This document shows, in pieces, positions 1 to 10,891 of a DNA stretch of 64,000 nt; the first letter of the stretch is position 1, and every line of letters begins with the position of its first letter. The notes beneath the pieces are model-generated. The model searched no databases. It was not told where the DNA came from and worked only from the letters and a program-made list of their open reading frames with translations. The position numbers and the translations under genes were made by a program. The stretch comes from Baekduia soli. GTDB taxonomy: Bacteria > Actinomycetota > Thermoleophilia > Solirubrobacterales > Solirubrobacteraceae. The stretch spans positions 3,720,001-3,784,000 of the forward strand of contig NZ_CP042430.1 in assembly GCF_007970665.1 (NCBI RefSeq), written 5' to 3'.

Positions 1-1
1 G

Positions 2-1321
2 TCGGGCGGCAAGCTCGACCGCCCGGGCCTGAACGTGATCCTCGCGCGCATCGAGTCGGGCGCCACCGACGGGATCGCCGTCGCGAAGCTCGACCGTCTC
101 AGCCGCGCCGGTGTCGCCGACGCCCTGAAGCTCGTGGAGCGCATTCAGGACGCCGGAGGAGTAGTTATCGCGGTCGACCTGAACCTCGACCCGACGACAC
201 CGACGGGCGAGCTGCTGATGACCCTGCTCTTGGCCCTCGCCCGCATGGAGCGCCGCCGCCTCAGTGACTCCTGGGAGGTCGCGAAGAGCCTCGCGCTGGA
301 GCGCGGCGCGAAGATCGGGCCAACGCCCTACGGATACCGCCGCGCCGACGATGGCACGCTCGCGCCGGACCCCGTCGAGGCGCCGCACGTCCGCGAGGCG
401 TTCCGGCTGGCTCGCCACAGCGTCCAGGCCGCGACCGACTACCTCGCCGAGCACGCGGAGGGCCGCACGTGGACCGTGTTCACCGTCCGCCGCTTCCTCG
501 GGCGCCGGAGCTACCTCGGCGAGCAGCACTACGCGGGCGAGGTCGTGCGCGATTCTCACGAGCCGCTCGTGTCGCTCGGCGCCTGGGAGCTGGCGCAGCA
601 CGAGGCGCCGCCGTCGCGCCGTCCCCCGGCCGCGTTCCCACTGTCGGGCGTCGCTACCTGCGGGACCTGCGGCGGGCCGATGGTCGGAGGGCGCGGCGGC
701 CGTGCGAAGGACGGCTCGGGCCTGCGCACCTACCGCTGCGCCGCCTCCATGAAGAAGCACCGCGGCGTCCCGTGCCCGGCCCCGGCGACGATGGTCGCGA
801 CCCGGCTGGAGGGCTACGTCGACGAGGTGCTCCGGGCCGCCTGGGCGGAGCGCGGCGCGCTCGTGACCGACGCCGACGGCGCCGAGGCCGAGCTGGGCAT
901 TGTGGAGGCCGAGCTGGCGGCCCTCCTCGCCGAGCGCGAGGCGTTCGCCGCCGATCTTGACGCGCGCCGCGCCCTGGGCGACGCATGGAGCGCGACCGCC
1001 GCGGCGATGACGGCCGCGATCGAGGCGACGCAGGCCCGCTACCGCCAGCTCGCCGAGGCATCGTCCCGCGCCGAGCGCACCGTGACCGGCGCCGAGCAGC
1101 TCGACGCCGCGGACCCCGTCGCATGGGGCGCCCTGGTCGCCGACGTCACAGACCGCGTCGTCGTTCATCGTGGCCGCGGGTCGGTCGAGTCCCGCGTGAG
1201 GGTCGAGGCCGCGTGGGACGTCGACGATCGCCCGGTCCCGGACGTCGAGGAGTCCTCGGACGTCGGGTCGGCGCCGCCGGTCACGGACGCGGACGCCCCG
1301 GCCTCGACGACTGACGCCTGA
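2..1321 (+). CDS. Large serine recombinase/integrase (5' end cut by window)
   Basis: Site-specific serine recombinase that would integrate and excise the island occupying the first 10.7 kb. The reading frame is open to the left edge, so the N-terminal tyrosine/serine catalytic region is missing. What remains shows the end of the resolvase fold (KLDRLSRAG, then LALARMERRRLSD), a recombinase domain around visible residues 105 to 200, and a zinc ribbon (CGTCGGPM, then YRC and PCPAP near residues 230 to 270). A long charged coiled-coil tail follows. This order is typical of phage and ICE integrases rather than small resolvases. The family is clear; the exact type of element is not. Confidence 0.9.
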   Translation, partial: SGGKLDRPGLNVILARIESGATDGIAVAKLDRLSRAGVADALKLVERIQDAGGVVIAVDLNLDPTTPTGELLMTLLLALARMERRRLSDSWEVAKSLALERGAKIGPTPYGYRRADDGTLAPDPVEAPHVREAFRLARHSVQAATDYLAEHAEGRTWTVFTVRRFLGRRSYLGEQHYAGEVVRDSHEPLVSLGAWELAQHEAPPSRRPPAAFPLSGVATCGTCGGPMVGGRGGRAKDGSGLRTYRCAASMKKHRGVPCPAPATMVATRLEGYVDEVLRAAWAERGALVTDADGAEAELGIVEAELAALLAEREAFAADLDARRALGDAWSATAAAMTAAIEATQARYRQLAEASSRAERTVTGAEQLDAADPVAWGALVADVTDRVVVHRGRGSVESRVRVEAAWDVDDRPVPDVEESSDVGSAPPVTDADAPASTTDA

Positions 1322-6000: not shown

Positions 6001-7122
6001 TCAGCCGATGCGCGCGGCGAGTAGGCAGAGATCGTCGGTGAGCGTCCCGTACGCGAACTCTGCGACGCGGGAGCGCAAGATGGCGATGACTTCAGCCGGC
6101 GAAGGATGGGCGACGTCGGCGAGCGCATGCCTGACGCCCGGCAGCCCGAACTGCTCGCCGTCCCGACGCGCCTCGGTCAGGCCATCCGTGTAGAGCAGCA
6201 GCCCCTCGCCGGCTTCGCATTGCCGTGAGCCCTCGAGGCATTCGAGGTGGGTGTCCAGGCCGAGGGGAACGCCCTGCTCGGCGCCGAGGAGCTCCTCGCC
6301 TGTGTCCAGCAGCATGGCGGGTGGATGCCCGGCGTAGGCCCATCGCAGGCGCCGCTCGCTCGGCAGGTACGTGAGGCACGCAGCGGTGACGAACTCCTCG
6401 GCCGTGCCTGCGCGTTCGGTCATGGCGGTGTTGACCCAGCTCAACAGGCGGGCCGGGTCGTCGGTGAACGGCGCCGTCGTCACAAACGCCGTGCGCACGA
6501 ACGCGGCACGCCTTCCCGCGTGGAGGCCGTGGCCGGCGGCATCGCCGACAACGAGCACGGTGGACTCCTGCGGTCCATCAGCGACAAGGTAGAAGTCTCC
6601 GCTGACGCGTTCGGCGGCGGCGGGCAGGAAGGCCGCGGCGAGGTCGAGGCCGGGGCGCTGCGGCAACTCGGGGGGCGTAAGCGCATCCCGGATCGCCCGC
6701 AGATCCTCAAGCTCGTGCTCGGCGGCCGCGAGCCGCGCGCGAAGCGCCACGAGGTCCTCTTCCCGCACATCGGCCTCTTGGCGCAGCCGAGCAATAAGCC
6801 TCTCGTGGCGGTGCTCGCGCTCGCCGATGTCATGAAGGTCCCGCTCGCGATCGACGGCCTCTCGCCGGAGGTCGCCGGCCTCAGACCGGAGGTCGACGGC
6901 CTCAGCCCGGAGGTCGACGGCCTCAGACCGGAGGTCGACGGCCTCAGACCGGAGGTCGACGGCCTCAGACCGGAGCTTGCGCACCAGTTCTTTGTCGTTT
7001 TCGGCGTCTGACGGCATCGGGCTCGGCGCGCATCTCTGCTCGTCCTGGCCAGGCGCTCGTTTATCCTCGCGCATGCTGGCTGTCGTGTCCACGGTGCGCC
7101 AGCGCACCCGATTCCGCTGCAC
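6001..7122 (-). CDS. SpoIIE/RsbU-type serine phosphatase with heptad-repeat coiled coil
   Basis: PP2C-like phosphatase of the SpoIIE family, which dephosphorylates anti-anti-sigma proteins in partner-switching systems. The phosphatase domain spans about residues 165 to 373, with metal-ligand motifs SGDFYLV, GDAAGHG and TLTDDL all present. Before it lies a long coiled coil (residues 45 to 145) that includes five LRSEAVD-like heptads encoded by 21-bp tandem repeats. There is no membrane segment, GAF or PAS domain, so the coiled coil is the only visible sensor or oligomerisation part. The first possible start is GTG 7122; ATG 7017 (MPSDAENDKELV) is an attractive alternative. It sits in the island as cargo, with no sigma-regulator partner beside it. 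Confidence 0.85.
   Translation of the reverse strand: MQRNRVRWRTVDTTASMREDKRAPGQDEQRCAPSPMPSDAENDKELVRKLRSEAVDLRSEAVDLRSEAVDLRAEAVDLRSEAGDLRREAVDRERDLHDIGEREHRHERLIARLRQEADVREEDLVALRARLAAAEHELEDLRAIRDALTPPELPQRPGLDLAAAFLPAAAERVSGDFYLVADGPQESTVLVVGDAAGHGLHAGRRAAFVRTAFVTTAPFTDDPARLLSWVNTAMTERAGTAEEFVTAACLTYLPSERRLRWAYAGHPPAMLLDTGEELLGAEQGVPLGLDTHLECLEGSRQCEAGEGLLLYTDGLTEARRDGEQFGLPGVRHALADVAHPSPAEVIAILRSRVAEFAYGTLTDDLCLLAARIG
6877..6981. repeat. 21-bp tandem repeat inside phosphatase gene
   Basis: About five copies of a 21-bp unit run head to tail from 6877; the first four are nearly identical and the fifth diverges. Each unit encodes seven residues (VDLRSEA and variants), so gain or loss of a unit keeps the frame and changes coiled-coil length by one heptad. 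Confidence 0.85.
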
Positions 7123-7190: not shown

Positions 7191-7420
7191 TTTGGACGAA
7201 AAGCGATCACGCCTCGTAGCGCGCCTGCGCGTGTGCTTCATCGGACGGTCTCGCCGAATCGTCGGCCGGACCAGTCGGGCTGCGGCTGGCGCACGACCTG
7301 TCCGACTCAACCGGGCCGCCCGAAACACGGCCTCCCGGTGGACAGCTACCGACGCCGGGACCATGGAGGCCGGGGATCGGGAGGGCATCTGCAGACCTCC
7401 CGATCGCTCCGCGTCACGCC

Positions 7421-7445
7421 GGGCCGGGCCGGGCCGGGCCGGGCC
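7421..7445. repeat. Five tandem GGGCC units
   Basis: The pentamer GGGCC is repeated five times without interruption in non-coding DNA. It is a low-complexity run likely to vary in length. Confidence 0.8.
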
Positions 7446-7486
7446 ACGCCGTCTGCATCGAGAGGGCGGAGTTCCAGACGGACTAC

Positions 7487-8869
7487 TTACCGCAGCCGCT
7501 GCCGTAGGACCCTCCTGAGGTCAAAGCCGGTCGCGGGGCCGAGCGAGGCGACGTGACTGCTCGCGTGCGCCATGGTCGCGACCGCCACCTGCCGTCGCGC
7601 CGCGTCGAGAACCGCGTCCAGACCCTCGACGTACAGCGGCTTGATGGGCCTGGGCCTAGACCCCAGGAACATCGGAGTCCCCGCTTCGCGAACCATCTCG
7701 GCGATCACGCGCTTCGCGTCCGCCATCACGGTGCCGGTCGTGACAATCATCGCGCGCTGGGGGCTATACCGCGCGAGTCGGTAGTTGAAGGGGTAAGCGT
7801 CTCCGGGACCGAAATCGCGATCCTTCAATTCGAGGATCCAGACCTCATCGAGGAAGGACAGGACGATGTCTACCTCCTCGCCAGCCTCGGTCATGTTCCA
7901 GAAGATGGAATCCGCCGGGACGCCGGCCGATACCAGCCGCTCGGTTACGAACACCGTCATCCAGTGGCTTTTCTCGATCAAGGAGCGCCCCAGGGGCGAA
8001 ACCGAGTAGCCCTCCTTGAGGAGTTCGTCCGCGAATCGTCGATTGCAGCTCGGGTGGCGCAGATCCTTGACTGCTTCGAGTTCGGCAGGATCGTCGAACT
8101 CGGTCAGCGGGCTGCTGTCGGTCCGGCAAATCAAGAGGTGCTTCGTAGCGAGCAGGCCGCACCCTTTAAGACTTTCGATCGCCGCCTCCGCCTCGCCCTC
8201 TGGCAGACGGCGGGACCACTTCGCCAGGAGGTCGGTTGCTCGAACGAACCCGGCCTTGCTGATCTCAATCAACATCTCGCGCGCGAAATCGCTGGACAGG
8301 GTTTCAGCCCCGGTGGTCAAGGCCGCGTCCAGTTGCGCACGCGAGAACGACGCTGGCCCCTCATCTGTGTCCGACAGGATCTCGTGCAACCGACCGGTGG
8401 GCTCGTTGTCGATCTCGGTCCAGTCGAAGCGCATGTAGCGCGCGCGGCGTCCGTCCACACTCGACTTAATCGAAACCTCGACCGCGTCGGCGAACGGCCT
8501 CCAGACGTCGACAGCGTCGCGCGTTCCATCATTGACGACGACTCCCGTGATGAGAGTGGACTCGCCGTCGGGTGCGGCCACGGAGACGAAGTCAAACTCG
8601 CTTCCAGGGCGCCCGGGGCTCCCGAGGTCCAAGAAGAACATGTCGCCGTCCTTGAAGAAGACGTCGCCGACGGAGCCTCGCTGACCCAACCGCCCGCCTG
8701 CGAACCGGTACGACTTCTCGCTCGGCTCAATACCCGCATGCCTTAAGAACTCCTGCTCAGCGGCTAATACCGCAGGTTCCCATCCCTGCGAGCGAAGACA
8801 AAGCAGAACGGCCGGGAGCTTTTCTTGCTCCAGCTTGATCTCCGTCGCGGCTCGATGGGCGCTGATCAT
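7487..8869 (-). CDS. PD-(D/E)XK nuclease-like cargo protein (460 aa)
   Basis: A large protein with no full-length family I recognise. Near residues 330 to 350 it has a restriction-endonuclease-like core: an acidic strand EEVDIV (Asp about 334), then ELKD (Glu about 347, Lys about 349), matching the D-(E)xK metal site of PD-(D/E)XK nucleases. The middle part contains a helical region suggestive of a DNA-binding winged helix (SSDFAREMLIEISKAGFVRA). The N-terminal 200 residues are unassigned. ATG 8869 is chosen because upstream codons look non-coding and a -10-like TAAAGT lies 7 bp before it. Its composition is visibly less GC-rich than chromosomal neighbours. An anti-phage role is inferred from the nuclease core and island context. 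Confidence 0.65.
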   Translation of the reverse strand: MISAHRAATEIKLEQEKLPAVLLCLRSQGWEPAVLAAEQEFLRHAGIEPSEKSYRFAGGRLGQRGSVGDVFFKDGDMFFLDLGSPGRPGSEFDFVSVAAPDGESTLITGVVVNDGTRDAVDVWRPFADAVEVSIKSSVDGRRARYMRFDWTEIDNEPTGRLHEILSDTDEGPASFSRAQLDAALTTGAETLSSDFAREMLIEISKAGFVRATDLLAKWSRRLPEGEAEAAIESLKGCGLLATKHLLICRTDSSPLTEFDDPAELEAVKDLRHPSCNRRFADELLKEGYSVSPLGRSLIEKSHWMTVFVTERLVSAGVPADSIFWNMTEAGEEVDIVLSFLDEVWILELKDRDFGPGDAYPFNYRLARYSPQRAMIVTTGTVMADAKRVIAEMVREAGTPMFLGSRPRPIKPLYVEGLDAVLDAARRQVAVATMAHASSHVASLGPATGFDLRRVLRQRLR

Positions 8870-8899
8870 TCGACCTACTTTAGGCCGTGTCCGGACACG
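8870..8899 (-). promoter_or_regulatory. Promoter with 14-bp perfect palindrome before nuclease gene
   Basis: The palindrome CGTGTCCGGACACG covers 8886-8899, 17 bp upstream of the nuclease ATG. On the minus strand a -10-like TAAAGT follows it and ends 7 bp before the ATG, suggesting a leaderless transcript. A repressor on the palindrome would block the promoter. Confidence 0.5.
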
Positions 8900-9170: not shown

Positions 9171-9497
9171 ATGCCCCAGCGCACCCCACCCCGCCACCTG
9201 TCGGCGCCCTCGCGGCGCTGGCTGGCGCACCTCAGCACCGACTACACCTTCACGGAGACCGAGTGGTCTCTCGCGCTCATGGCCGCGGAGACTCGCGACC
9301 GCGCCTCGACGGCGCGGCGCACGATGACCCGTGAGGGCCTGACGCTCACGACGCCGATCCTGTCCAAGAAGGGCGACATCGTGGGCCAGCGCGTGAGCGC
9401 GCATCCGGCCGCAGCCATCGCCCGGGACAACGTCGCGCTCTACTCACGCCTCGTCTCTCAGCTCGGCCTCGACGACGACGCCGAGGGTGGCGCCTGA
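9171..9497 (+). CDS. Phage small terminase subunit, P27 family (108 aa)
   Basis: Small terminase subunits recognise phage DNA and hand it to the large motor subunit for packaging. This protein matches the P27 pattern along its length: LSAPSRRWLAHLSTDY, a helical segment LALMAAETRDRASTARRTM, then REGLTL, and the diagnostic tail HPAAAIARDNVALYSRLVSQ followed by LGLD. Length is usual for the family. The start was chosen after cgaaagg. Its stop overlaps the next ATG. No large terminase follows, which is unusual for a prophage and points to a satellite or a remnant. Confidence 0.85.
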   Translation: MPQRTPPRHLSAPSRRWLAHLSTDYTFTETEWSLALMAAETRDRASTARRTMTREGLTLTTPILSKKGDIVGQRVSAHPAAAIARDNVALYSRLVSQLGLDDDAEGGA

Positions 9498-10713: not shown

Positions 10714-10891
10714 CTCGGGCGGCTCTGCGGTCCGTCCCGCCCCGTTGGGTTCAGGCGCCGCTACAGAACTGGTTGGTGCTGATCAAGTGGGGACTCTTGC
10801 GTCGGGGTGCGGGAGACGGGTGCGCCCGGCGCGGGCGCGATGCCCAGATGGTAGGCCCGACCGGCCCCGCGCGCCCGGCGGGCGTCCCGGG

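Follow-up and report, generated by a model that had tools for sequence, protein, structure and literature searches.

We analyzed a window of 64,000 nucleotides of Baekduia soli DNA, which contains a gene for a predicted nuclease. Its C-terminal half appears to be an effector of the Can2/Card1 type, and its N-terminal part is a different, fast-evolving putative sensor. We infer that the protein probably serves as a mobile one-gene defense. A bolder reading, which we put forward tentatively, would make it a candidate one-gene immune system, spread as island cargo over five phyla, in which a Can2/Card1-type module carries a new sensor fold and infection is sensed directly, without a cyclic nucleotide made by Cas10; this reading also takes in a related, catalytically dead chromosomal branch of Chloroflexota and Nitriliruptorales. 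The gene is present in one copy in the genome of B. soli. The sequence-only reading had claimed a 460-residue open reading frame with a D..ExK core and a lower GC content than the chromosome. The ATG-started frame lies at 7487-8869 on the minus strand, its GC content is 0.638 (GC3 0.798) compared with 0.737 in the part of the window past 11 kb (0.74 for the chromosome), and the core is seen as E332-x-D334-x12-E347-x-K349. The gene had also been described as alone in its island, which is correct in the sense that it is monocistronic and flanked by genes for a SpoIIE-type phosphatase and a small-terminase-like protein. A short tandem GGGCC repeat (window 7420-7447) lies directly 3' of the stop codon.

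7487..8869, minus strand: nuclease gene, 460 residues (ATG at 8869, stop at 7487-7489)
8405..8869, minus strand: putative sensor domain, residues 1-155, predicted order beta-alpha-alpha-beta-beta-beta-alpha
8096..8329, minus strand: winged-helix domain, residues 181-258 (model and structure alignment)
8024..8128, minus strand: Cys cluster C248, H272, and C275 with the invariant E282, residues 248-282
7610..7996, minus strand: PD-(D/E)XK nuclease core, residues 292-420 (model, Foldseek, and VIA-align)
7823..7876, minus strand: active-site motif E332-x-D334-x12-E347-x-K349 (alignment of 18 members)

An AlphaFold model built from 12 sequences (pLDDT 83.7, pTM 0.79) predicted three parts: an alpha/beta domain at the N terminus, a winged helix that bears a Cys cluster, and a PD-(D/E)XK nuclease, the core of which has the order alpha-beta-beta-beta-alpha-beta. 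Foldseek assigned VC1899 (E 3.4e-5), Cdn1 (5.2e-5), and Can2 as the top PDB matches (E range 3.4e-5 to 8e-4). VIA-align gave Z scores of 15.4 for Cdn1 (213 residues aligned, 3.5 A), 14.1 for Can2, 12.3 for VC1899, and 10.5 for Card1; these top matches cover both the winged helix and the nuclease (model residues ~155-432), and matches to single domains reached up to Z ~10. Comparison with the viral structures in BFVD detected only generic phage endonucleases. These data suggest that the C-terminal half adopts a PD-(D/E)XK nuclease fold and is kin to Cdn1, Can2, and Card1, and the fold that the sequence-only reading had proposed to look for was found in the model and by both structure comparisons. 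The proposed kinship with Can2/Card1 rests on the predicted structure; phmmer and profile searches of PDB sequences returned nothing relevant and no Can2/Card1. At position 272 of the Cys cluster, the window copy has His and all other members in the 18-row alignment have Cys. Pfam zinc-finger matches to this region were weak, and the cluster is a possible metal site.

When the N-terminal domain was modeled by itself, its pLDDT was 80. Foldseek found no PDB match for it at E <= 0.001, and the best VIA score against the PDB was Z 7.5, a value that unrelated structures also reach. Bet v 1, Mediator (Med18/20), and phosphoglucomutase C-terminal domains were among the VIA matches, all with scores at the chance level (Z <=7.5), and the domain was left unassigned. 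CARF, SRA, YTH, and PUA folds were absent among the matches listed for the domain. It had been stated that the N-terminal 200 residues match nothing; this holds for residues ~1-155, but residues 180-260 form the winged helix. Mean pairwise identity is 24% in the N-terminal domain versus 56% in the nuclease, and the former is the fastest-changing globular part. A sensor exposed to shifting selection would be expected to diverge in this way, and relaxed constraint could also have produced the difference. Since the front half has no known fold match, unlike that of Can2/Card1, the protein may be an unrecognized single-gene defense.

The gene had been regarded as cargo of a mobile island, and an island with attL and attR was indeed found at efp. 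It is of the serine-recombinase type, sits in the 5' end of efp, and measures ~11.0 kb, since it is bounded by the cores AACTGATTGGTGCT and AACTGGTTGGTGCT.

Window -254 to -241: attL core AACTGATTGGTGCT, inside efp
1..1321, plus strand: large serine recombinase, beginning 167 nt before the window
6001..7122, minus strand: SpoIIE-type phosphatase, island gene (E 4e-39)
9171..9497, plus strand: small-terminase-like gene (phrog_83 E 0.0015; PF05119 E 0.0013, a match below cut-off that came from a longer reading of the frame)
10767..10780 (L033 17746-17759), no strand: attR core AACTGGTTGGTGCT, near-identical to the attL core

In genus relatives, synteny ends at window -241, inside efp, and the uninterrupted site GAGCTGGTTGGTGCTGATCAAG was seen in one such relative (two overlapping loci). 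The insertion point falls within the first few codons of the gene for elongation factor P (efp), for which the island provides a new 5' end (MAAPKAGAYRVVFV-STNQ...); the recombinase starts divergently from this new end, ~33 bases apart. The N terminus of the SpoIIE-type phosphatase is a heptad run, (LRSEAVD)n. Another phage-like small protein is encoded in the island (phrog_1709, E 8e-4), and no capsid or other packaging genes were recognized among the island proteins scanned. It is possible that the island comes from a phage, a satellite, or a prophage remnant. With regard to type II restriction-modification, a methyltransferase was not found among the island proteins scanned.

None of Pfam, NCBIfam, PADLOC, and PHROGs, in the versions searched, recognized the window nuclease. 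A search by sequence through 296 genomes of its own phylum detected the family in three, its own genome counted, and a profile made from the two relatives recovered 13 loci in Actinomycetota, Chloroflexota, Pseudomonadota, Bacillota, and Bacteroidota, whereas a scan of genome contigs with the single nuclease sequence gave none. Samples of the own phylum and of Chloroflexota yielded additional relatives. The family is rare and scattered over five phyla. No relatives were found by tblastn against plasmids and phages or in two IMG/VR scans. In most loci the GC content of the nuclease gene is lower than that of its surroundings, as in Amycolatopsis (0.51 versus 0.73) and Chloroflexales (0.44 versus 0.59). 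A partner gene common to the homolog loci was not found, the neighbors varying by locus, and therefore the nuclease probably acts alone. Several homolog loci contain defense-type neighbors, given here as raw occurrences and not as an enrichment.

L019 3523-5142: Lamassu LmuB (E 1e-177), near the Mucilaginibacter homolog
Neighbors of one homolog: HEPN_AbiU2 and HSDR_N with a weak Mrr_cat match
Neighbors of one homolog: HEPN_Swt1 and NACHT, adjoining an integrase and Replic_Relax
Neighbors of a homolog: HEPN/RES
Neighbor of a homolog: NERD

Speaking against a defense role, several copies have housekeeping surroundings, for example in Salinispora (near tig) and Amycolatopsis (near a histidinol dehydrogenase gene). 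A gene of weak DpnII-MboI similarity (L019 2285-3502) lies between LmuB and the Mucilaginibacter homolog, and the Caldilineae copy (L017 8001-9147) is broken into two overlapping frames by a frameshift or an assembly error. The sequence-only reading had named two outcomes that would speak against it, a predicted structure lacking the restriction-endonuclease fold and homologs always in housekeeping contexts. Since the PD-(D/E)XK fold was predicted and homologs of the catalytically intact branch were found in defense-rich places, neither outcome was obtained for this branch.

The main rival to our reading is a solitary modification-dependent type IV (Mrr-like) enzyme, for which neither a second messenger nor a dimer switch is needed. 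Its N-terminal domain and/or its winged helix with the Cys cluster would read modified bases, and the PD-(D/E)XK domain would cut. The one-gene, sporadic, and mobile distribution without a methyltransferase partner is consistent with such an enzyme, as are weak Mrr_cat matches in 5 of the 14 members (best E 4.5e-4) and one weak PADLOC mREase_IV match (E 0.005). Moreover, the winged helices of some type IV enzymes sense N6-methyladenine (PMC11037411). However, the combined winged-helix/nuclease arrangement fits Cdn1/Can2 best, the window nuclease itself has no Mrr_cat match, and a known modified-base reader was not recognized in the N-terminal domain because this domain has no confident PDB match. 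We regard a type IV enzyme as unlikely, although it deserves more weight than the other alternatives.

The active site was compared in an alignment of 18 members. In the sporadic branch, none of the 12 members has lost E332, D334, E347, or K349, and the invariant positions of the alignment include R197, C248, C275, E282, W303, D350, and F353. The four catalytic residues are spaced like E308, D310, E323, and K325 of Cdn1, of which the first three are essential and K325 is conserved (PMC12825302). The set is partly lost in six members, which belong to two chromosomal groups and together lie on one side of a branch supported at 98/95. One group is from Chloroflexota, and its flanks are alike between genomes (syntenic); the other is from Nitriliruptorales/Actinomycetota, where one copy lies beside rpe and the other does likewise by its translated neighbor. 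The catalytic residues are accordingly kept by the mobile branch and lost by the chromosomal branch, and the loss of the active site in this sister branch, a point against our main reading, indicates that the scaffold also serves a purpose other than catalysis.

L025-L030; L022 7962-8888; L023 768-2285: homologs of the pseudoenzyme branch, with lost catalytic residues
8886..8899, no strand: perfect 14-bp palindrome CGTGTCCGGACACG, 17-30 nt upstream of the nuclease ATG
8877..8882, minus strand: TAAAGT (TANNNT type), possible -10 element of a leaderless promoter, from the sequence only

The perfect 14-bp palindrome that had been noticed upstream of the gene is present, and it is the sole occurrence of CGTGTCCGGACACG in the 5.2-Mb genome with up to one mismatch allowed. 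The window contains 24 perfect 14-bp palindromes, and five first-order Markov simulations gave 15-34; at the density in the window, the chance of finding one within 50 bases before a start is ~2%. A palindrome like CGTGTCCGGACACG was not seen in the upstream regions of 11 homologs. With its frequency at the chance level and its absence from these regions, it was rejected as a conserved operator, and the tight control that had been proposed on its account is unsupported. The proposed leaderless-type promoter survived in part: TAAAGT, which sits at 8882-8877, 7 nt 5' of the ATG, fits it, but an SD-like AGG also stands before the ATG, and a consensus scan found no sigma-70 promoter. The promoter assignments are thus suggestive. 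The winged helix, the palindrome at the promoter, and the catalytically dead homologs in Chloroflexota (syntenic) and Nitriliruptorales could all point to a protein with a regulatory or DNA-maintenance role for the island or the host. The winged helix of such a protein would bind DNA, and its nuclease activity would be a side function or lacking. It is improbable that the window protein is of this kind, however, as the four active-site residues are kept throughout the sporadic branch (12/12) and the upstream regions of homologs do not share the palindrome.

CRISPR ancillary nucleases are commonly thought to be gated by CARF domains. A layout of CARF, then a winged helix, then an effector is common (PMC4012209). 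When a ligand occupies the N-terminal CARF dimer of Can2 or Cdn1, the nuclease domains are rearranged and the active site is opened or made complete (PMC7969007; PMC12825302). PF09002 (Card1_endonuc) gave no match to the window nuclease at E <= 1, was not among the families listed for the 14 members or in its own genome, and was not found in 119 genomes of the phylum of Thermanaeromonas. The N-terminal order in the predicted model (beta-alpha-alpha-beta-beta-beta-alpha) is not that of the Rossmann-type CARF of Can2/Card1. The window nuclease has neither a CARF domain nor the PF09002 signature and was therefore not filed in the Can2/Card1 family. A Can2/Card1 member with a much altered CARF, still binding a cyclic nucleotide from another defense system, is highly improbable: the closest folds are Cdn1, Can2, and VC1899, the last of which is an orphan CARF nuclease that cA4 does not activate (PMC7969007), but the predicted N-terminal order shows no Rossmann alternation, the alignments to Can2, Cdn1, Card1, and Can1 chains start at model residues 153-161 (those to Can2, Cdn1, and Card1 at 154-161), and a search of the genome with one Cas10 palm model found no such domain.

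According to our preferred reading, a Can2/Card1-type effector half joined to another sensor, the protein would be a metal-dependent PD-(D/E)XK nuclease built like Can2, Card1, and Cdn1, with the CARF sensor replaced. A homodimer may be kept inactive until the N-terminal domain meets an infection signal, which could be some component of the phage or a small molecule. Activation would bring the two nuclease halves together in the manner of Cdn1, and they would cleave phage DNA, phage RNA, or both, and perhaps host nucleic acids as well, so that mobile islands would carry a self-sufficient one-gene defense. A cyclic oligoadenylate of type III systems is unlikely in this host because the Cas10-Cmr2 palm domain (PF22335, one model) was not found in its genome; cas genes were likewise not found among the scanned neighbors of homologs. 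If the preferred reading is correct, the family is a new single-gene defense candidate missing from the searched versions of Pfam, NCBIfam, PADLOC, and PHROGs, and its N-terminal part is a new sensor domain. The same nuclease half with another gate would then represent an effector module exchanged between signaling contexts.

Among known systems, EndoMS/NucS and AF1548-type nucleases resemble the window nuclease in the nuclease core only (Z 8.8-10.1 over ~100 residues); they have other accessory domains, whereas the window family is scattered and mobile. Mrr-like type IV enzymes share a winged helix with PD-(D/E)XK and occur as solitary mobile genes, and 5 of the 14 family members show weak Mrr_cat similarity to them, but the window nuclease has an extra N-terminal alpha/beta domain of ~155 residues and its whole-module fold best fits Cdn1/Can2. 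Can2, Card1, Cdn1, and VC1899 (DUF1887, PF09002) are similar in the order of sensor, winged-helix-like region, and PD-(D/E)XK domain, in the E-x-D...E-x-K site with the Cdn1 spacing, and in the fold over residues 155-432. Unlike these proteins, the window nuclease lacks a CARF domain in the predicted model and has a Cys cluster between the winged helix and the nuclease.
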